DNA from: Granulicella sp.
GTDB taxonomy: Bacteria > Acidobacteriota > Terriglobia > Terriglobales > Acidobacteriaceae
Direction: 5' to 3'
Length of the DNA stretch: 57,511 nucleotides
Assembly: GCA_027365345.1 (NCBI GenBank)
Contig: DAHXNO010000073.1
Location: forward strand, 1-57,511
The number at the start of each line of letters is the position of its first letter. Within the stretch, counting starts at the first letter, position 1. The position numbers and the translations under genes were made by a program. Of this stretch, positions 4,023-44,748 are shown piece by piece. A model generated the notes under the pieces. It was given only the letters and a program-made list of their open reading frames with translations, did not search any database and was not told where the DNA came from.

Positions 4023-4099
4023 CGGGACGTGGCTCAGCCTGGTAGAGCGCGTCTTTGGGGTGAGCGAGGTCGCGAGTTCGAATCGAGTCGTCCCGACGA
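4023..4099 (+). pseudogene. Degenerate tRNA-Pro(GGG) copy
   Basis: Same 77-nt length and almost the same sequence as the intact tRNA-Pro at 44672-44748, including acceptor stem, D arm, anticodon loop TTGGGGT and T loop TTCGAAT. Differences fall in stems. In the anticodon stem pair 28-42 changed from A-U to G-C (compensated), but pair 30-40 is now C-A and two others are G-U. In the T stem pairs 51-63 and 52-62 are G-A and A-G mismatches. The encoded CCA end reads CGA. A transcript would probably be unstable or unprocessed. Seven bases immediately upstream (CAACAAG) are also shared with the intact gene, so the duplicated block was larger than the tRNA. Confidence 0.8.
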
Positions 4100-35407: not shown

Positions 35408-36538
35408 TCATCGGGCGCTGGCCGACGCGGCCTTGAGCACGGCAAAGAACGCAGGCACCGGCTGACCATTCCGATCGAACAACAGGGGATAATTCGTCCG
35501 TCCTTTCACGGGCCAGTTATTCAGCCACGAACTGGCGTCCGTAACACCCCAGAAGGTAACGCGCGACACGATGTCGCGATGCGCAAGATAGATCCTGAAC
35601 AGGCCCTCATACCGATCTGCCAACTGTTGCTCTACGTCATCCGGCAGGCCGTTCGTATAGGGATTAAGCGCCGCGCTGGGGTGGACGCTCAGGCTTATAT
35701 TCGCCGTCAATCTCTTGGCCGCCCGGGGAAGCACATCGACGTCAAGCTCTGAGATCGCCACCTTCACGCCCAGCTTCCCAAATGCGAGGATCGTTTTCTG
35801 TTCCTGTTTGAGCGATGGCTGCGTCAGGGAAACGTGCCCCTGCATTCCAACCATCATCACGGGAACTCCCTCCCGCTTGAGTTTCGTGATGAGAGCCAGA
35901 GCCCCGGCGCGCTTTCTGGGGTACTCAAGATCGTAATCGTTATATGTCAGGATTGCCCCGGGGTCTGCCTGGTGTGCGAACTCGAAGGCTTTGGCAATGT
36001 AGTCTTCGCCGATGATCTTGTACCACAGAGTCTGGCGAAGGCTGCCGTCGTCATTCAGCGCTTCGTTCACAACATCCCAGCTCTTAACTCTTCCCTTGTA
36101 GCGCCCCACGATTGTCTGGATATGGTCCTGCATGCGCCGCAGCAGCGTGTCTCGATCCACCAGATTCCCGTGGCTGTCTCGGAAGACCCAGGCAGGAGTC
36201 TGTTGGCGCCACACGAGGGTGTGGCCAACGATGTACATATGGTGCTTCTCGCCGAAGGCAACGTACTTATCCGCAAGCGAAAAGCAATACACCCCGGGCC
36301 GGGGATGAATGTTCTCCCACTTGAGGACGTTTTCCGGGGAGATCGAGTCAAACTGGCTTTCGATGATCGCATCCCCTTGCGGATCTTGTCCCGTGATCTG
36401 CGCGGCGTTGATTGCGACCCCGATGTAGGGGGCGGGGCCCAATACCTTTTTGAGAGACGGCGTCCCGGCCCCTGATGGCAGCACGGCTATTGCCGCAAAG
36501 GCCACGGCTGTTAGACTTCGACGGTATGGAATGATCAA
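35408..36538 (-). CDS. Glycoside hydrolase family 10 endo-1,4-beta-xylanase
   Basis: 376 residues from a TTG at 36538 preceded by GGGAG at ten bases; the ribosome site overlaps the end of the upstream VWFA gene, so translation is probably coupled. A signal peptide (SLTAVAFAAIAVLPSGAG) precedes the barrel. GH10 motifs: SPENVLKWENIHP, GHTLVWRQQTPAW, the acid/base Glu159 in WDVVNEAL, NDYDLE, GMQGHVSL and the nucleophile Glu264 in VAISELDVDV; FWGVTDASSWLNN completes the site. The enzyme cleaves beta-1,4-xylan. No carbohydrate-binding module is attached. Last gene of the receptor-VWFA-xylanase set. Confidence 0.93.
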   Translation of the reverse strand: MIIPYRRSLTAVAFAAIAVLPSGAGTPSLKKVLGPAPYIGVAINAAQITGQDPQGDAIIESQFDSISPENVLKWENIHPRPGVYCFSLADKYVAFGEKHHMYIVGHTLVWRQQTPAWVFRDSHGNLVDRDTLLRRMQDHIQTIVGRYKGRVKSWDVVNEALNDDGSLRQTLWYKIIGEDYIAKAFEFAHQADPGAILTYNDYDLEYPRKRAGALALITKLKREGVPVMMVGMQGHVSLTQPSLKQEQKTILAFGKLGVKVAISELDVDVLPRAAKRLTANISLSVHPSAALNPYTNGLPDDVEQQLADRYEGLFRIYLAHRDIVSRVTFWGVTDASSWLNNWPVKGRTNYPLLFDRNGQPVPAFFAVLKAASASAR

Positions 36539-36545
36539 GCTGTCT

Positions 36546-38129
36546 TTACTCCCTTGCGGATTTCTTCACATCCAGCGAAACATTTATCGTGCCCATTCGG
36601 CCCGAGGTTGCATCCCACACCACCAGGTACAGGTAGTCTTGCCCCTTGGGAAGGCTGATCGTCTCATCGAAGCTCATCTTGCCTTCCGGCTTGGAGCGAA
36701 TCTCCGTCTCGTCCGCCGTCAGCGTTACGACTCGCGCCTGCCGTTTGATGACATCTCCGTTCCGGTCAAAGGCGAACGCTCCCGCTCCTAGAACAAACGT
36801 CCCGCGACCGTTCTGGCTCACACTCTGGGGGGTGAGCGTTCCAGCCGGCACCTGGTAATCGATCACGTAGGAGAGTTCCCCTCGCTCCGGGGCATGGGCT
36901 TGGCCGGCGCGCACGGCTGAGGCCACGGCCAACGGAGAGATTTCTACGACCTCTGCCTGCAAGGGTATCGGCTCGCTGCTGATGTCCGGCGCCGCCTGGT
37001 TCTCCGCCAGCAGGCCTTTGGTCTCCGCCCCCGGTGGCGCTTGATTCCACTGTTCGTCGAAGTATCCTCTCCGGTAACTCAGCCGATAGCCGGGCACGAG
37101 CAGCTTCACCTGGATGTGGCGCCATCTGCCGTCGCCGCGCAGGTGATCGGGCGAATACGCCAGGGAGTAGTAATCGCCGTCTGTGGTGACGATGTGCCCG
37201 GCTACCTGCGCCAGATCATTCGTGTCATACCAGGCCTGTCCGCCAGTCGCCTCAGCATCTTCTTTCATCTGCTCCTGTTGCGCCACGTATCCCTGGACGG
37301 GATTGGAAACCAGACCACGAGCGTCGATCGGGTACAACGTTATCCGCGCCCTCTCAAGCAGGTCATAGAGATACTGCAAGTCCGGCTGATTTGCGTCGGC
37401 GCTGACGGCTGGAACCGGGATCGATACCGACGCCCCCGAAGCTACCTGTGTGACGCCCGTGGCGCTCGGGTCCACCTGCAGAAACAACTGCGAACCGCCG
37501 CTGAACCACAGTATGTTCTTCCTTCCGGGAACCTGGACCAGGGCGCCGGCGATCTGCTCCAAGGTCTGGTCGTCGGTGGCGAACTGCGCCTCCGGCTGCT
37601 CAACATGAGGGATCGCCCTGTGGATCGCCTTCATCAGCAACGCATGGTCGGAGGTAAATCCTTGCAGCAGGAGCGTCATCTGGCCCGCCCTGCTGTAGAT
37701 GGCCAAGGGCGTCGCGGCCGGCAAATTCTGCACAAACCGCGCCAACTGCTGGTACAGATACATCTGGTCCGCAATGCCAATCGTCGTTGTGTCGATCAGG
37801 ATGACGTTCACCACCGGCGGCGGATGCAGCATCCCTCTGTTGGTGAAGACTCCCGCAGCCCCCGCCGCGGGTTCAGCGGCGATGCTGGCGTTGCCGGAGT
37901 GCTCCTCGAACGCATTCAGTGTCTGAGGGCGCCCATCGTCGAATACCTGAAACTCCTCTTTCTTCAGCCCCTGTACTGGATTCCCGTGGCTGTCGGTCAC
38001 CGTCACATCAATCAGCACATCTCGCACATTTACATGCAGAGTTGGCGCAGGCTGCGTTGCAGGGCTCTGCGCCTCGGCCGAGGCCGCCAGCAGACAGCAC
38101 AACACCCCCACAAAAGCCTGCTTCCTCAT
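36546..38129 (-). CDS. Acidobacterial VWFA-related secreted protein
   Basis: 527 residues from the ATG at 38129 (GGAG six bases upstream); a GTG seven codons earlier is an alternative. Signal peptide MRKQAFVGVLCCLLAASAEA. The start LHVNVRDVLIDVTVTDSHGNPVQGLKKEEFQVFDDG, then VNVILIDTTTIG, TPLAIYSRAGQMTLLQGFT-like strands and KNILWFSGG, place it with the VWFA-related domain family found mainly in Acidobacteriota (TIGR03436 type). The expected MIDAS DxSxS reads DTTTI here, so metal binding is uncertain. The C-terminal ~200 residues are beta-rich and unassigned. Role unknown. It sits seven bases upstream of the xylanase gene and ~210 bases after the receptor gene. Confidence 0.82.
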   Translation of the reverse strand: MRKQAFVGVLCCLLAASAEAQSPATQPAPTLHVNVRDVLIDVTVTDSHGNPVQGLKKEEFQVFDDGRPQTLNAFEEHSGNASIAAEPAAGAAGVFTNRGMLHPPPVVNVILIDTTTIGIADQMYLYQQLARFVQNLPAATPLAIYSRAGQMTLLLQGFTSDHALLMKAIHRAIPHVEQPEAQFATDDQTLEQIAGALVQVPGRKNILWFSGGSQLFLQVDPSATGVTQVASGASVSIPVPAVSADANQPDLQYLYDLLERARITLYPIDARGLVSNPVQGYVAQQEQMKEDAEATGGQAWYDTNDLAQVAGHIVTTDGDYYSLAYSPDHLRGDGRWRHIQVKLLVPGYRLSYRRGYFDEQWNQAPPGAETKGLLAENQAAPDISSEPIPLQAEVVEISPLAVASAVRAGQAHAPERGELSYVIDYQVPAGTLTPQSVSQNGRGTFVLGAGAFAFDRNGDVIKRQARVVTLTADETEIRSKPEGKMSFDETISLPKGQDYLYLVVWDATSGRMGTINVSLDVKKSARE

Positions 38130-38337
38130 CCATTCTCCAGAAAGCTCCACACCGCGCCGTTGGGCTGCCCGGGAGGAATGCCGAACTGGCGGCTGAAACC
38201 CGTCCCGGTTCCTGCGCCGTGGGACACATCTCTAAAACGCCGGAGCGCCATATTGCGCCGTGGTCCGTCTTCGCTTGAAAGCTGTGGGAAGGCCGCCGTC
38301 ATCGTAGGCCTTCCCACGCTCCCGGAGCATCCATGGA

Positions 38338-41300
38338 TCAGAAGTTGAAGGTGATTTGAATCTCTGAGATGCGCCGGCCCGTGCGCAGCGGAACCAATCC
38401 AAAGACAGTGGAGTTGGAGTTCGTAGCATCGGAAAGCGCCGTAGAGATGGGCTGATAGGAGTTCTGCGGCAGGTTGGTCTCATACAGCGTGATGGCGTTT
38501 GGGTCCACCGCGCTGGAATAGGTTCGATTGGCGTGATTGAGGAAGTTGAAAGCGGAGTAGCGCACCTGCAGGCTCCGGCTTCCGCCGAAGCCAAAACTCT
38601 TCTGTAGCGCCAGATCGCTGTCGGTATAAGCCGGACCATACAGATCGGGCTCATGGTAGGGGCCGTTCACACCGAGTTGCGTCTCCAGCGAGTAGCAGCT
38701 TCCGTTGATGTACCGCGAACCGTGGCGAGAGAACGGATTGCAGCTTACCGCCGGCATCAGGTAGACATCCGGGGTGCCCAGCAGATCCTGCGCTTCAACC
38801 GGAATCTCCCCTTGATTTCCGCCGTTAGCAACGTCGAGTTCGCCCTCGAGTGAGAAGTCAGGATTGTTGGTCGCCAACAGATCCGGCCCGCTTTGAATGG
38901 TCGTAATGCCGGAGATCATCCACTGATTCACCAACGCACCCAGGATACGCTGGTGGACAATATTACCCAGCGTGTAGGAGTAGCTGGCATTGAAGATATT
39001 CCGCCGGTCAAATGCCTCTGGACCATAATCATCGCGATAGTTGAAGGGCGTCACCGGCGTTCCATTACCATCAGCGCCCCATACACCCAATGCCTTGGAC
39101 CATGTGTAGTTAATGCCGTAATTCAGCGCCTTGGATGTCTTATTCCATACGATCTGCAGCGCGTTGTAGTTGGCATTCACGTTATGGTAAGCGACTTCCA
39201 ATTCGTCATACTCCGGGAAGGGGCGGTAGTCGTCCACCTCCTGCTGCGTCATCCCGCTGATATCGGTGCAGGTCGTGCTGCCGGTCGGGCAAACCAGGGG
39301 GTAGTTCTCTCCAGTGATGGGATCCGGCTTGAATAGACTGCCGATTGGCATGGCGTTGATGTTGTCCAGCGTGACCGGCTGGGTCGACCCGTCGTTGAGC
39401 AGATGCCGGCTGACGTTTCCGATGTAGCTGATCTGCACCAGGGAGTGGAAGGGCATCTCCTGATCGAGTATCAGATTATAGGTGTAGACCTGTGGCTGAT
39501 GATCGTCGTTCGGGAAGAAGCCAAACCCATCTTGCGTTGGGGTAAAGCTGCTGACCGAACCCACCGGCGGTGCGTTCGCAGGTACGTCCGCAAGCAGCAT
39601 CGGTCCGTCAACGGTTACGGTGCGTTGGTTCATGGAAGCGCTGGCGGCGTTCTCGATGTCGTTGGTGGAGTCGTGTGCGGTGTAGATGCCGGCACCTCCG
39701 CGAAGCACCGATCGACCATTGTGACCGATGTCCCAGGCAAAGCCCACGCGCGGTTCAACAAACGCCCAGCGAGAGAGCAACCCGGATTTAGGAATGCGGG
39801 AATCGAGGCTGTGCCACAGGAAGCCCGGCGCACTGGGATTCTGCGTTGTGCCATAGGTGGAAGGCTCCCACACCGGTATGCCCGCAAAGTTGGCCGCGCT
39901 CCACGGTGTGAGGTGATTGAACCGTACTCCAACGTCAAACGTCAGATAATTCTTCATACGGTAGTGATCCTGAACATACCCGTCGATCGTCCAGTCGTAG
40001 ACGTCGGGCGCGGGTAGAAGGCTGGCCTGGGTGTAGGAAAAGATTCCACCCTCCAGGAAGTCGGCAAGATAGTTACCACCGTTACCGCTGCCGATCGCGC
40101 CCGTCGAATAAACTGTCGTCCCCGCCGGCGTGCCATTGTAGGTTGGACCAATGTAATACATGGCGATAGCGCCGTTGGTATCAACGAAATCACTTACCTG
40201 ATGGTTGTTGTCCAGTTGCACATAGACACCGCTGCGCAGCGTGTGGCGGCCATAGACCTTGGTTATGTCGTCCTCCCCCGTGCGCACCCACTTCTTGGCG
40301 TAGATGCCGCCGAAGGTGGTGTCTGGATAGAGATTCACCGGCAAACCGTCATAACCGTAATCCTGAAACTGGGGAATACTCTTGGAGCCATTATTGAAGA
40401 TTCCAGGGAAGTTCCAACTGCCATTGAGCGACAGCGCCGAGAAGTCCTTGTCCACAAAGTCCTGATCGAAGTAAACACCGGAGACGCTCAGGTTGTTGGT
40501 TAGGGTTGAACTGGCGATCCATGTCCAGTTCAACGTCCCCATCTCGGAGTTGAGGTCGGCCAGCATACCGCCGCCAGGCGTGTTGGTGCCTCCCATATTG
40601 CCTCGCGGAGAGTAATACTCGATCTGCGGAACACCCTCTTTGCCTCGCTCTGTGCTGTACATGACAAAGATATGGTTCTTGTCGTTCAGTTCCTCGTCCA
40701 CGCGGCCCTGCCCCTGCCAGTCATCGTTGTCCACCAGGTTGGTAGTCGCCCAGTTGTAACCTTCGGGGTTGGTCGATGGCAGGTTGGGCAGCGGTAACGT
40801 ATTCAGCAGCGCCTGCATGGTGGGATTCACGTTCGAGCCCAGTTGCCCGTTGGTGAGAGGGCTGCCATCCAAACCCGTCGCCGGCACCGACGATATGTTG
40901 GAGTAGGTGCTGCTGGTAACCAGCGGACCCAGATATTGATTGATCTGTGACTGGCTGAAGTCACCGGTACGCATCTTGAGCGTCGGCACCAGCGCCGTGA
41001 GGATGGCGCTGGTGGCGTTGCCATACGCATACACGTCGCGCTGCACGTAGTCTTCCGCACCCACAAAGAACGTAAGATGCCGGTTATGATTGAAGTCCGT
41101 ATGCGGGATCAGGACCGGTCCACCAACGGCCAGCCCCGGGTAGATCTCGTAGTCAGGCGGCTTCCCCTGGTGGTCGTAGTTCGCGAGCCAGTCGGTTGAA
41201 TCCAACTGGTAGGTGCGGCCATACGTGTAGACCTCTCCGTGCAGATGATCCGATCCCGACTTGCCTGCGGCGTCGATCACGATGGGACCATACGCCTGGT

Positions 41301-42060
41301 CCGCCGTTATGGCCGAGGTCTGCACCTTGACCTCGGAGACCTGGTCGTAGTTGGTGTTCTGGAGCGTGCCCGCGTAGGCTCCGGGATCGGTAAGATCCAC
41401 GCCGTCATAGAGGACTTCCACGCCATTGGTGATGGTGCCTTCGCCGGAGTACGACCCGTAAGCGCCGGTCACGCTCACTTGGGATGGGTCATAGGCGGTA
41501 TTGCTCACGTTGTTGTTGCCGCCGCTGATGGCAAATCCGGGCAGAATCTTCAGCAACTCCGTGACGTCGCGACCCTCCACCGAGAGGTGCTTTATCTGTT
41601 CCGAGGAGATCATCGTGCTGGCCGTGCCGGAGTCGAGCGTGATTCCCTGGGTAGTCGCACTGACGCTGACTACCTGCGAAGCCGCGCCGGGCTCCAGCAC
41701 GAGCTCCCGCAGGCTGCGCGAGTCTCCTGGGTCGAGGTGGATGTCGCTCTCCTTCAATGCCTTGAAGCCAGCGGCTGACAGGCTCAAACGGTAGTCGCCG
41801 GGTGTAACATCGGCAAACAGGAACTCGCCGACCTGGTTCGACTTGACCACCCGGGTAGAGCCGCTGGCCTGGTTGGTCAACGTGGCCTGGGCGCCGGGAA
41901 TTACGGCGTGGGTGGGATCCACCACCGTGCCGCTCAGGTTAGCCAAGGCGGCGATCTGAGCCTGTGCCGACGGATAGGCTGCGAGAACCCAGACCAGCAA
42001 CAGGGCCGCCAATGGGAAAACACGGCGGCGCGTCCCGTGGGCTGCTTCCAAACCTGACAT
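38338..42060 (-). CDS. Giant TonB-type outer-membrane receptor with carboxypeptidase-regulatory domain
   Basis: 1240 residues from the ATG at 42060, chosen for GGAGAAGAGGG directly upstream. A signal peptide (VFPLAALLLVWVLAAYPSAQA) is followed by a CarboxypepD_reg/Cna-type beta-sandwich (LSGTVVDPTHAVIPGAQATL... FLFADVTPGDYRLSLSAAGF, ~40-115), a plug-like region (ISSEQIKHLSVEGRDVTELLKILPGF) and a very long beta-barrel with many aromatic strands. The protein ends ...ISEIQITFNF; a final Phe is the signal recognised by the barrel-assembly machinery. Such receptors bind oligosaccharides in SusC-like fashion, though these acidobacterial members have no SusD partner here. Together with the xylanase downstream, xylan oligosaccharide uptake is the natural inference. 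Confidence 0.88.
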   Translation of the reverse strand: MSGLEAAHGTRRRVFPLAALLLVWVLAAYPSAQAQIAALANLSGTVVDPTHAVIPGAQATLTNQASGSTRVVKSNQVGEFLFADVTPGDYRLSLSAAGFKALKESDIHLDPGDSRSLRELVLEPGAASQVVSVSATTQGITLDSGTASTMISSEQIKHLSVEGRDVTELLKILPGFAISGGNNNVSNTAYDPSQVSVTGAYGSYSGEGTITNGVEVLYDGVDLTDPGAYAGTLQNTNYDQVSEVKVQTSAITADQAYGPIVIDAAGKSGSDHLHGEVYTYGRTYQLDSTDWLANYDHQGKPPDYEIYPGLAVGGPVLIPHTDFNHNRHLTFFVGAEDYVQRDVYAYGNATSAILTALVPTLKMRTGDFSQSQINQYLGPLVTSSTYSNISSVPATGLDGSPLTNGQLGSNVNPTMQALLNTLPLPNLPSTNPEGYNWATTNLVDNDDWQGQGRVDEELNDKNHIFVMYSTERGKEGVPQIEYYSPRGNMGGTNTPGGGMLADLNSEMGTLNWTWIASSTLTNNLSVSGVYFDQDFVDKDFSALSLNGSWNFPGIFNNGSKSIPQFQDYGYDGLPVNLYPDTTFGGIYAKKWVRTGEDDITKVYGRHTLRSGVYVQLDNNHQVSDFVDTNGAIAMYYIGPTYNGTPAGTTVYSTGAIGSGNGGNYLADFLEGGIFSYTQASLLPAPDVYDWTIDGYVQDHYRMKNYLTFDVGVRFNHLTPWSAANFAGIPVWEPSTYGTTQNPSAPGFLWHSLDSRIPKSGLLSRWAFVEPRVGFAWDIGHNGRSVLRGGAGIYTAHDSTNDIENAASASMNQRTVTVDGPMLLADVPANAPPVGSVSSFTPTQDGFGFFPNDDHQPQVYTYNLILDQEMPFHSLVQISYIGNVSRHLLNDGSTQPVTLDNINAMPIGSLFKPDPITGENYPLVCPTGSTTCTDISGMTQQEVDDYRPFPEYDELEVAYHNVNANYNALQIVWNKTSKALNYGINYTWSKALGVWGADGNGTPVTPFNYRDDYGPEAFDRRNIFNASYSYTLGNIVHQRILGALVNQWMISGITTIQSGPDLLATNNPDFSLEGELDVANGGNQGEIPVEAQDLLGTPDVYLMPAVSCNPFSRHGSRYINGSCYSLETQLGVNGPYHEPDLYGPAYTDSDLALQKSFGFGGSRSLQVRYSAFNFLNHANRTYSSAVDPNAITLYETNLPQNSYQPISTALSDATNSNSTVFGLVPLRTGRRISEIQITFNF

Positions 42061-42248
42061 CCCTCTTCTCCTGCAATTCCAAATTTGCATAATGACCTCT
42101 GAAGTTTTTGTGGCTGAACCTGCTGAGCCCCATAACGCAAACAGAATCTGCGCTGCTGCTCAGCCGTGTTTCAAAGCCATTCCAGCTTGTTGTAAAAAGC
42201 GACGCTAGACTAACTGAGTCAAGCCGTGCCTTGGGAAGGGTTATTAAA

Positions 42249-42308
42249 GTACAAAAAAGTACGCAACCCCGTTTCACAGGTGCAACCCTTGTGAAATCAA
42301 CCACGTAC
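42249..42308. promoter_or_regulatory. Candidate operator region: TTTCACA-N11-TGTGAAA dyad with flanking GTAC elements
   Basis: A perfect 7-bp inverted repeat spans 42272-42296 (TTTCACA, 11 bases, TGTGAAA). On one side two GTAC palindromes lie exactly 10 bp apart (42249-42252, 42259-42262), one helical turn; on the other a third GTAC lies within ACGTACGT (42304-42309). The cluster stands ~190 bases before the receptor start and ~170 before the -10 of the divergent regulator gene, a good place for a dimeric regulator. Confidence 0.55.
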
Positions 42309-42463
42309 GTGTTCGCGTAAAGACGCGGATCCTGTCCCGTTACATCGCTGGATAAATCGCTTTAATGAAGATGCCCACCGGCCTCTTGCCTGCCTCTCCT
42401 CGTCCCGCTCCGCCGCCCGTCCTACGCGCTGGTCAGGAAACGGGAAAGTCTCTGCGTTAGCGA

Positions 42464-42471
42464 TGTATAAT
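42464..42471 (+). promoter_or_regulatory. Extended -10 promoter TGTATAAT of the malectin regulator
   Basis: TG followed by TATAAT. No clear -35 hexamer, as is common for extended -10 promoters. The leader would be ~75 bases. Confidence 0.55.
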
Positions 42472-42553
42472 CGGGCTTGCCGCCCGAGGTTACCGATACT
42501 ACGCGGGGTTTGAACGGCCCCCTATCGGGTAGGCCACCTGGGTCCTAGCCGAT

Positions 42554-44275
42554 ATGGATACTCGCAAAGGATCAGAGACCCAAGACATCACGTCTCCACG
42601 CCTTCTTGCGGCCGAACGAGCCGAGTTCGAGATGGTTTCGGCGGACCTTCGGCACGCTCATCGACTGTGGAAACTACTGCAGTATCTCGGAGAAAAGTAT
42701 TTTTCCGGCTGCGCCCACGATTTGACTGAGTTCAACATCGCCACCGAGGTCCTGGGACGGAGCAAAAGCTCCTTTGCAACCAGCGAGGATGCGATTGCCC
42801 GCGTGGAAGCCCACCGGCTGCGCAAATGGCTCAAAACCTATTACCAGAATAAAGGCAGAGACCACGCTATCCAGATTGCCCTGCCGGCAGGAACCTACGT
42901 CCCCGTCTTTGAATGCCATGACCTGGAGGACAACCCACCTCTCGACGGACCGGATACGGCGACCGCGACGGCCCACCCGCCGAGCGCATCCCACTTCGCG
43001 GGCCAATCCCCGGCCCAATCCAGTTGGAAAGATGAGCAGGCTACGGCATCGCAACCGGATGAGACGCAGAGCGCCACTCCAGCGGTCCTCGCTGCCGGGG
43101 AGCAGCGCCATCGAGCCACTTTGCAGAAGGCTCGGTTCGCGGCGCTCTTGTTCTTGATCTTCGCTCTCGGAGCCGGGTTCGGAATCTGGATGCACTTCGC
43201 CCCGCCTATGCGCCCCGCTTGGTCGGAGGCACAAGCCGCGCCGCTCGTCGCGCGTGGTGTCTCCGCCCACCATGGTGTCTCCTCCTACCGCGGGGCCGCC
43301 GCCAGTGTCCCCGTCCCCCTGCGGATCATTTGCGGCTACTTTGGTCCTCCCCAAATGGACAGCGCGGGGGACCTCTGGCAGCCTGATCAATATTGGGAGA
43401 ACGGTTGGACAAAGAGTCAGCCGACCGTCTACATTGCCCGAACGAGCGATCCCTTTCTCTTTCGCTACGGCCGCTTTGGGGACTTCAGCTACAAGATTCC
43501 TCTGGCTCCGGGGATCTACGAGCTTCATCTTTACTTCATTTCGGCGGCTGCGGCCCCGGAACCGGAAGAAGATCAGGACAAATCTGTATTCACGGTGGCA
43601 ATCAACGGCAAGAATACCTTCGACGACTTCGATCCTCTTTCAGACGCCATGGGGATCAATATCGCCGATGAACGCGTTCTTCGCGATATCTCTCCGGCTC
43701 CGGACGGGTTCCTGCACATTCAACTCAGCACCTATGTCGGCTCACCCTCGTTGAGCGCCCTGAAGATCCTGCCTGGCTTGCCCCATAAGCAACTTCCGAC
43801 CCGAATCATTACCAGAGCCACGTTCTGGATGGATCCTCATGGACAGCTCTGGCATCCGGACACGTACTACCTGGGCGGCAGGCGGCTGACGCATAATGAC
43901 GTCGCCAGTTCCGAGGCCGGCCCCGGAACCGACGCGGATCTCTACCGCACAGAACGTTACGGGCACTTCTCTTACGCCATCCCCGTAGATCCCAGAGACC
44001 AATACACCGTCATTTTGCACTTTGCAGAGCTCTACTTCGGACCCAAAGGCCAGGAGGGTGGAGGGGTGGGAAGTCGAGTCTTCCGCGTCTTATGTAATGG
44101 CAGCACGCTGCTCGACAACTTCGACATCCTCCGCGAGGCTGGCCCCGGCCATCCGCTGGTCAAGACCTTCTATCACCTGAAGCCCACCGCGCAGGGCAAA
44201 CTCAATCTTGTCTTTGAGCCGATCAGGAATTACGCAACGGTATCCGCCATTGAGGTTCTCGACGAATCGAATTGA
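42554..44275 (+). CDS. Membrane-spanning winged-helix-like/double malectin protein, candidate carbohydrate-sensing regulator
   Basis: 573 residues. Residues ~25-120 match an N-terminal domain common in acidobacterial regulators and TPR/TolB proteins: LWKLLQYLGEKYFSG, LTEFNIATEVLGRS, SEDAIARVEAHRLRKWLKTYY and IQIALPAGTYVPVF. Its pattern is that of a winged-helix/CadC-like DNA-binding domain. A Pro/Ser/Gln-rich linker (~121-190) leads to one membrane helix (~195-216, FAALLFLIFALGAGFGIW). Outside are two malectin domains: ~255-405 with GDLWQPDQYW, YGRFGDFSYKIPL and IYELHLYF; ~418-570 with GQLWHPDTYY, YGHFSYAIPV, VILHFAELYFG and FDI. Malectins bind glucose-containing disaccharides. Divergent from the receptor/xylanase genes. 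The inferred role is a ToxR-like one-component regulator reading periplasmic sugars; DNA binding is unproven. Confidence 0.8.
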   Translation: MDTRKGSETQDITSPRLLAAERAEFEMVSADLRHAHRLWKLLQYLGEKYFSGCAHDLTEFNIATEVLGRSKSSFATSEDAIARVEAHRLRKWLKTYYQNKGRDHAIQIALPAGTYVPVFECHDLEDNPPLDGPDTATATAHPPSASHFAGQSPAQSSWKDEQATASQPDETQSATPAVLAAGEQRHRATLQKARFAALLFLIFALGAGFGIWMHFAPPMRPAWSEAQAAPLVARGVSAHHGVSSYRGAAASVPVPLRIICGYFGPPQMDSAGDLWQPDQYWENGWTKSQPTVYIARTSDPFLFRYGRFGDFSYKIPLAPGIYELHLYFISAAAAPEPEEDQDKSVFTVAINGKNTFDDFDPLSDAMGINIADERVLRDISPAPDGFLHIQLSTYVGSPSLSALKILPGLPHKQLPTRIITRATFWMDPHGQLWHPDTYYLGGRRLTHNDVASSEAGPGTDADLYRTERYGHFSYAIPVDPRDQYTVILHFAELYFGPKGQEGGGVGSRVFRVLCNGSTLLDNFDILREAGPGHPLVKTFYHLKPTAQGKLNLVFEPIRNYATVSAIEVLDESN

Positions 44276-44671: not shown

Positions 44672-44748
44672 TGGTCGGGACGACTAGATTCGAACTAGCG
44701 ACCTCACCCACCCCAAGGGTGCGCTCTACCAGGCTGAGCCACGTCCCG
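44672..44748 (-). tRNA. tRNA-Pro (anticodon GGG)
   Basis: 77 nt including an encoded CCA. Acceptor stem CGGGACG/CGTCCCG, D arm GCTC-AGCCTGGTA-GAGC, anticodon stem CACCC/GGGTG with loop TTGGGGT, variable AGGTC, T arm GCTAG-TTCGAAT-CTAGT; all stems pair. Reads proline codons CCC/CCU. A degenerate copy lies at 4023-4099. Confidence 0.97.

Follow-up and report, generated by a model that had tools for sequence, protein, structure and literature searches.

We asked whether a membrane protein with two malectin domains, encoded in a Granulicella sp. genome back to back with the gene for a TonB-type outer-membrane receptor, is a regulator that senses sugars outside the cell and controls the genes across the shared promoter region. 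Acidobacteria are major degraders of polymers in soil. Narrow searches of the open-access literature returned no account of how these bacteria choose which TonB-type receptor or polysaccharide system to express. The locus lies in a stretch of 57,511 nucleotides, the whole of which we refer to as the window, and its features are collected in Table 1; loci compared with it carry L numbers and genomes carry G numbers, the window genome being G000. An initial annotation of the same DNA had proposed a one-component, sugar-sensing regulator of the ToxR/CadC type, and as regards the type of regulator our analysis finds that proposal largely right.

Table 1. Features of the regulator locus, with window coordinates
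Feature	Position	Strand	Basis and remarks
Candidate one-component membrane regulator, 573 aa	42554..44275	+	ORF and full-length homologues
N-terminal winged-helix-like domain (putative), residues 18-121	42605..42916	+	Family profile match and hhalign to OmpR-type domains; weak Trans_reg_C likeness in relatives, not here
Single membrane helix, residues 195-213	43136..43192	+	Hydropathy; same in 26/26 aligned sequences
Malectin domain 1	43343..43678	+	Pfam PF11721, E 2.2e-9
Malectin domain 2	43814..44230	+	Pfam PF11721, E 9.1e-22; alignable to frog malectin
Divergent TonB-type outer-membrane receptor (OMP_b-brl_4, carboxypeptidase-regulatory domain and Plug), putative target	38338..42090	-	Pfam
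VWFA protein (TIGR03436), putative target, same strand as receptor	36546..38150	-	NCBIfam; close homologue in L023 and L056
GH10 xylanase, putative target, 7 bp after the VWFA gene	35408..36538	-	Pfam; homologue in L023
Candidate operator AAAGTACaaaAAAGTAC, tandem direct repeat AAAGTAC with 10-bp pitch	42246..42262	+	With up to one mismatch, once in the window and 0 in 100 shuffles; conserved in L023, with 1 mismatch in L056
Conserved palindrome CACGTACGTG, possible second regulatory site	42302..42311	.	9/10 bases invariant in three genomes

The open reading frame leads from an N-terminal domain of about 100 amino acids through one membrane helix to two malectin domains, the layout that had been read from it initially. 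Both N-terminal motifs singled out at that time (SEDAIARVEAHRLRK and LPAGTYVPVF) are present, the helix then placed at about residues 195-216 appears as a single hydropathy segment (residues 195-213) with no further transmembrane-like stretch outside it, and the two malectin-like domains beyond it are both recognized by the Pfam Malectin profile (PF11721), the whole protein scoring 112.6 bits over two stretches against a curated cut-off of 23. NCBIfam added one thing, a partial, sub-threshold match to a malectin-bearing glycosidase family, and neither Pfam nor NCBIfam matched the N-terminal part at E values up to 1. The gene is not a chance reading frame, since a full-length homologue with 77% identity and an identical start is present in another Granulicella MAG (L023, contig DAHWOF010000204.1) and 24 further homologues have the same layout. 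These 25 homologues are 30-77% identical to the window protein, and in the alignment of all 26 sequences each has one transmembrane-like segment and the common layout (L044 starts inside the N-terminal domain as called). The 15 residues preceding the helix include four lysines or arginines and those following it include one; the positive-inside bias is weak over the whole aligned family, so that an N-in orientation, with the malectin pair outside, is the most likely one on the strength of a modest bias. Two tRNA-Pro(GGG) genes are found in the window (4023-4097 and 44672-44748), the second just downstream of the regulator gene.

The malectin pair is the putative sensor. The Pfam Malectin family is also called CBM57. 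At E values up to 1e-5, the window genome has no malectin domain beyond the two in this protein. For frog malectin, excerpts of a published study name five residues proposed to contact diglucose, Y67, Y89, Y116, F117 and D186 (PMC7783096). In the second malectin domain Y469, Y494 and F495 align with frog Y89, Y116 and F117, so these aromatics are kept; the frog numbering used here is offset by 23 from the chain numbers, based on the agreement of Y116/F117 and Y89, and the alignment as printed spans neither Y67 nor D186. The first domain, as judged by eye, has no aromatics of the Y116/F117 type in the corresponding loop, which makes the second domain the likelier, if putative, sugar binder of the pair.

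The other bacterial malectin domains scanned belong to large proteins, several of which also have glycosidase domains, and three of the five malectin proteins scanned near regulators carry a GH12, GH16 or GH81 domain. By hand count, 19 of the 35 non-regulator malectin ORFs in four genomes (G002, G009, G056 and G062) lie within 30 kb of a malectin regulator, one of the 19 being an 80-aa piece at a contig end; by our own arithmetic the 30-kb zones make up roughly 1 to 9% of these genomes. The same kind of count in the other 18 genomes gave nine more malectin ORFs, two of them at least 39 kb from a regulator on the same contig and seven on contigs without a regulator, thus far from one or at an undefined distance. 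The clustering in the four genomes, together with the GH12, GH16 and GH81 domains, ties the malectin module to glucan enzymes. Runs of genes for malectin proteins adjoin a double-malectin regulator at G056:C115:81096-103515 (eight ORFs) and at G009:C19:207977-222878 (four ORFs).

What, then, is the N-terminal domain? The window's own copy has no Pfam match at E values up to 10; it does not match PF00486 (Trans_reg_C, the OmpR/PhoB-type effector domain) at the curated cut-off, and is absent from the results of a PF00486 search of the window genome at E values up to 10. Among 87 N-terminal domains of the family, 16 match Trans_reg_C weakly (best E 0.0013), and any other Pfam family matches at most two. 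The family consensus (...LxYxxxxxxxGxxxxLKEYxIGxEVFGRxxxFDPxxDxIVRVxAxRLRxxLxxYY...IxLPxGxYxPxF) can be aligned to the OmpR-type effector order of helix, helix, long helix and hairpin. When a profile of the 87 domains was compared by hhalign with nine Trans_reg_C domains of the same genome, it scored 27.9 (probability 55.8%), and 21 unrelated real alignment windows used as controls scored at most 18.3; with a 35-row alignment the score was 27.4, versus at most 20.2 in 200 column shuffles and 12.4 on reversal. Profile searches of the PDB with 35 and with 87 N-terminal domains returned no match at E values up to 10.

Structure prediction gave models of low confidence. The full-length model, made from two sequences, was unusable (pLDDT 32.5). 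A low-confidence model of the N-terminal domain (pLDDT 59; 112 residues from window residue 13; four sequences) has, in its own numbering, helices at 3-19, 24-38, 47-53 and 68-88 and two short strands, a predicted order that is compatible with a winged helix and no proof of one. It opens with a helix, and OmpR-type domains begin with a beta-sheet, according to excerpts of PMC8517210 and PMC5430869. Foldseek returned nothing at E 0.001 with this model; its six weak matches were two structures of the OmpR-family protein RpaA on DNA (E 6.2 and 7.4), three of MutSbeta and one methyltransferase, for which VIA-align gave Z scores of at most 2.3. The winged-helix-like domain foreseen by the initial annotation draws its backing from remote profile evidence and from the promoter repeats described below, and we base nothing on these models and fold matches. 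Together, the weak Trans_reg_C matches, the hhalign scores and those repeats suggest that the domain is a winged-helix-like DNA-binding domain. We call it winged-helix-like, and do not file it as Trans_reg_C, because the window sequence has no Pfam match and the model starts with a helix.

The domain is not confined to malectin proteins. Some match to the regulator protein was found in 65 of 101 genomes (the window's own and 100 relatives), many of the matches in these genomes covering the N-terminal domain only or malectin only. In a phylum-wide draw of 297 genomes, with five candidates scored per genome, full-length double-malectin matches occurred at seven places in six genomes, the window included, and the N-terminal domain without malectin was far commoner among the matches listed. 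Pfam scans of ten such relatives identified the C-terminal partners as NB-ARC with TPR (L099), a PD40 propeller (L117 and L118), TPR (L119 and, weakly, L105) and GH16 (L057), the C-terminal parts of the remaining four (L052, L094, L102 and L123) having no Pfam match. The family joins a single DNA-binding-like domain to C-terminal modules that can be exchanged (malectin, GH16, beta-propeller, TPR and unassigned), and it recurs beside TonB-type receptors in Acidobacteriota. In the open-access literature we found neither a malectin regulator nor this regulator family described, which does not prove their absence from print.

Several members deserve description. The one further copy of the domain in the window genome (G000:C98; L052:6108-7481) stands divergent from the gene for a TonB-type receptor of 1260 aa, and many receptor-paired relatives, at about 410-505 aa, are similar to it in length. 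A glucanase-like GH16 module forms the C-terminal part of L057:753-2603, by Pfam, and of L053:9595-11478 and L055:5007-6776, by eye; these enzyme modules are possibly used as sensors. In L099:2734-5448 an NB-ARC-type ATPase and TPR repeats come after the domain, an arrangement like that of STAND transcription factors. One contig of a viral collection (L074, IMGVR_UViG_2622736433_000002), possibly host DNA, also encodes a family member, which has a membrane helix and additional sequence in its C-terminal part.

The position of these genes points to their likely targets. As the initial annotation had anticipated, homologues recur beside TonB receptors: 28 of 32 malectin regulators have an upstream gene in divergent orientation (a raw count), and in 13 of the 32 this is a TonB-type receptor gene. 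Dropped from this count were L024, on the same contig as L023, and L090, a near copy of L089, and at two loci, L026 and L028, the sequence in view includes no upstream gene; in L056 a contig end falls after the N-terminal domain and hides the malectin part, and the receptor of L051 is split into two ORFs. For 47 relatives whose C-terminal part is not of the malectin type (five of 52 having no upstream gene), there are 32 divergent upstream genes and 16 receptor genes, and a hold-out of 54 further relatives gave 46 and 29. ORFs were called by a simple longest-ORF rule, neighbors were counted from 160 aa up, and the Pfam scans of neighbors covered 30 chosen proteins. Viewed from the receptor side, the pairing is rarer: in a sample of 40 high scorers of which four could not be placed, three of 36 receptors have a regulator next door, all three divergent. 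The window genome has at least 27 TonB-type receptors (27 of 46 candidates scored).

Four of the 15 non-receptor divergent genes are linked to sugars, encoding GH12 with a ricin-type lectin (L025), GH16 with four malectin stretches (L030), a malectin/fn3 protein (L046) and an ROK protein (L087). For ten of the 28 divergent genes no link to sugars is evident, namely those for TPR proteins (L036, L037, L040 and L042), glucose-6-phosphate dehydrogenase (L034), a type III PKS (L031), a BNR-repeat protein (L041), a chemoreceptor (L088) and two proteins without a match (L050 and L089); the divergent gene of L039, at a contig end, lay outside the Pfam scan. At other positions near regulators we found a GH81 protein with three malectin stretches and a GH12 protein with four (L045), GH16 with a lectin (L049), a malectin/fn3 protein (L029), GH43 with a lectin (L033 and L085) and GH3 (L085). 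The proposed link to carbohydrate genes therefore stands insofar as receptors recur and glucan-active enzymes accompany homologues in several genomes, and gives way for the roughly one-third of divergent neighbors that lack an evident sugar link. Its specific form, a link to the xylanase, is weak: among the loci compared, a homologue of that xylanase occurs in the window and L023 only, and we reject a xylan-specific regulator on this ground. The enzymes beside other homologues (GH12, GH16 and GH81) would point to glucans rather than xylan. A plain enzyme accessory protein was likewise rejected, given the conserved N-terminal domain ahead of an internal membrane helix.

If the N-terminal domain binds DNA, its site may lie in the 463 bp between the regulator and receptor genes (42091-42553). 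Across three genomes (window, L023 and L056) this region contains conserved blocks that rise above a mean invariance of 0.48, and the best 17-bp windows, with 15 of 17 positions invariant, are on 42230-42262, which contains the candidate operator, and on 42352-42369. In a search of genomes G000, G023 and G007, AAAGTACaaaAAAGTAC occurs without mismatch in G000 and G023, solely at the orthologous position; allowing one mismatch adds that position in G007 and three further sites in G000 and G023. The pattern GTAC-N6-GTAC has one match in L027, a homologue paired with the same divergent receptor, but this match lies outside the intergenic region, so the exact repeat word was seen among close relatives only. 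A scan of 41950-42700 for consensus promoters and terminators found none.

ToxR recognizes a direct repeat, according to the title of reference 20 in PMC8517210, and we therefore tested how general such repeats are in the promoters of the family. In a first set of 49 divergent upstream regions, exact repeats of at least 6 bp numbered 15 at a lag of 10 bp and 10 at a lag of 11, versus a mean of 4.05 at the other lags within 8 to 30; in 300 dinucleotide shuffles, the two lags together gave 6.7 +- 2.6 repeats and at most 15. Because lags 10 and 11 had been chosen after the window site was seen, we examined a hold-out with a pre-stated test. Sixty further loci yielded 54 regulators and 40 usable divergent regions of 60-900 bp, all from relatives with other C-terminal parts, not malectin types, and from genomes that overlap with those of the first set. 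The hold-out gave 4 repeats at lag 10 and 11 at lag 11 versus a mean of 2.33; the two lags together are again in excess, owing to lag 11 alone, the count at lag 10 not being raised (other lags reach 5). After removal of related regions, among them two hold-out regions related to first-set ones, 84 of 91 regions were left, with 17 repeats at lag 10 and 20 at lag 11 versus a mean of 6.14 and a maximum of 11 over the 21 other lags. Within these, the hold-out part gave 4 and 11 versus 2.29, and the malectin types alone 9 and 6 versus 2.05, with a maximum of 6 at other lags.

Control regions had no such peak. At lags 10 and 11, we counted 0 and 1 repeats versus 2.71 in 33 divergent regions of the first loci away from the regulator, 18 and 14 versus 13.5 in 175 promoter-bearing regions, 3 and 3 versus 1.95 in 42 regions of the hold-out loci, and 3 and 2 versus 2.38 in 28 regions upstream of TonB-type receptors without a regulator next door. 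Three receptor upstream regions with a regulator next door gave 1 and 1 versus 0.10. The repeat signal is thus tied to the regulator gene. Of the 84 regions, 29 contain a repeat at one of these two lags (pairs of lags not touching 10 or 11 give 7 to 15), which makes the signal a statistical trait of the family and not a site in every promoter.

Sites of OmpR/PhoB proteins are direct repeats with a pitch of 10-11 bp. The candidate sites of the family described here have that pitch, and its domain shares a profile register with Trans_reg_C; it differs in that the matches are weak in relatives and wanting in the window protein. Its closest functional parallel would be the ToxR-like receptors CadC and ToxR, which, in excerpts of PMC5430869 and PMC8517210, likewise combine an N-terminal DNA-binding-like domain, one membrane helix and a C-terminal sensor and use direct repeats as sites, for which we have candidates. 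Unlike theirs, the N-terminal domain is not recognized as OmpR-type by Pfam and in the low-confidence model starts with a helix in place of a beta-sheet, and a malectin pair serves as the putative sensor. Both domains of the pair belong to PF11721 above the cut-off; here they end a membrane protein that begins with a regulator-like domain, whereas the other bacterial malectins scanned sit in large proteins. The RsgI anti-sigma factors of Clostridium thermocellum offer a second comparison: according to excerpts of PMC12203970, these single-span proteins inform the transcription machinery of substrates by means of a carbohydrate-binding or glycosidase module outside the membrane, and the GH16 of L057 occupies the place of such an outer module. 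The window protein, in contrast, has no match to an RsgI-type domain at E values up to 1, and its inner domain looks DNA-binding, so our model needs no sigma factor.

Three other readings of these data have to be weighed. The RsgI plan of inner domain, membrane helix and outer carbohydrate-binding or glycosidase module would equally suit a membrane-anchored lectin that does not touch DNA, its N-terminal domain being a cytoplasmic protein-interaction domain, for example an anti-sigma-like one, and any regulation passing through a partner. That the window sequence belongs to no recognized DNA-binding family fits such a protein. We nonetheless regard it as very improbable, given the recurrent weak likeness to Trans_reg_C, hhalign scores above those of the controls and 10-11 bp repeats specific to promoters beside these genes. 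Those repeats could in turn be owed to other regulators of the same promoters, with the gene an ordinary neighbor, and their presence in little more than a third of the regions leaves room for this; the missing peak, both upstream of the 28 receptors without a regulator and in other divergent regions of the first loci, leads us to give this reading hardly any credence.

A different question is what the malectin pair binds. The protein could be a regulator of the same type in which the pair binds a protein partner, the receptor or its plug, or a cell-wall glycan, and so reports transport or the state of the envelope, not glucan oligosaccharides. Receptor pairing recurs whatever the C-terminal module, the first malectin domain lacks the loop aromatics, and in plants tandem malectin-like domains form the ectodomains of receptors, ANXUR and FERONIA, where they bind peptides. 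The concentration of malectin ORFs within 30 kb of malectin regulators, and the glucan-enzyme domains on those scanned, argue against this reading, which we consider unlikely.

We therefore favor, as the probable reading, a ToxR/CadC-like one-component regulator with a winged-helix-like N-terminal domain, a malectin pair outside and the divergent receptor genes as its targets. The N-terminal domain would lie in the cytoplasm and bind direct repeats that follow each other in the divergent promoter at a pitch of about 10-11 bp, here those at 42246-42262, and the one membrane helix would join it to two malectin domains in the periplasm. Oligosaccharides, most likely of the glucan type and freed by secreted glycosidases, would bind the pair and alter how the DNA-binding domains dimerize or are arranged. 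The divergent TonB-receptor/VWFA/GH10 genes would then be transcribed differently, most likely more strongly, and transcription of the regulator gene itself would probably change too. Of this reading, computation shows the architecture and its conservation, the gene order and the enrichment of repeats; the membrane orientation, the binding of DNA, the ligand and the sign of regulation are inferences.

The larger result is the regulator family and its operator signature, beyond the single malectin gene, in a family that is little described and in soil Acidobacteria. In its widest form our proposal is that Acidobacteriota have a plug-in family of one-component regulators anchored in the membrane. 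Their common part would be an undescribed winged-helix-like domain that recognizes tandem repeats of 10-11 bp; each member would sense its substrate by a borrowed outer module, including the malectin or GH16 modules that also occur in glucanases, and would control a divergent TonB-type receptor system. Such a family would be the phylum's counterpart of the hybrid two-component and sigma/anti-sigma polysaccharide systems found elsewhere. We hold this generalization tentatively, judging it somewhat short of an even chance. If it is true, one domain family would link many regulator genes across the phylum to a likely target, the divergent receptor gene; the operator signature could be read, and the outer module would hint at the substrate. 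Malectin, and perhaps GH16, would join the sensor modules of membrane-bound transcription factors, and the substrates of receptors in the phylum would become testable gene by gene.
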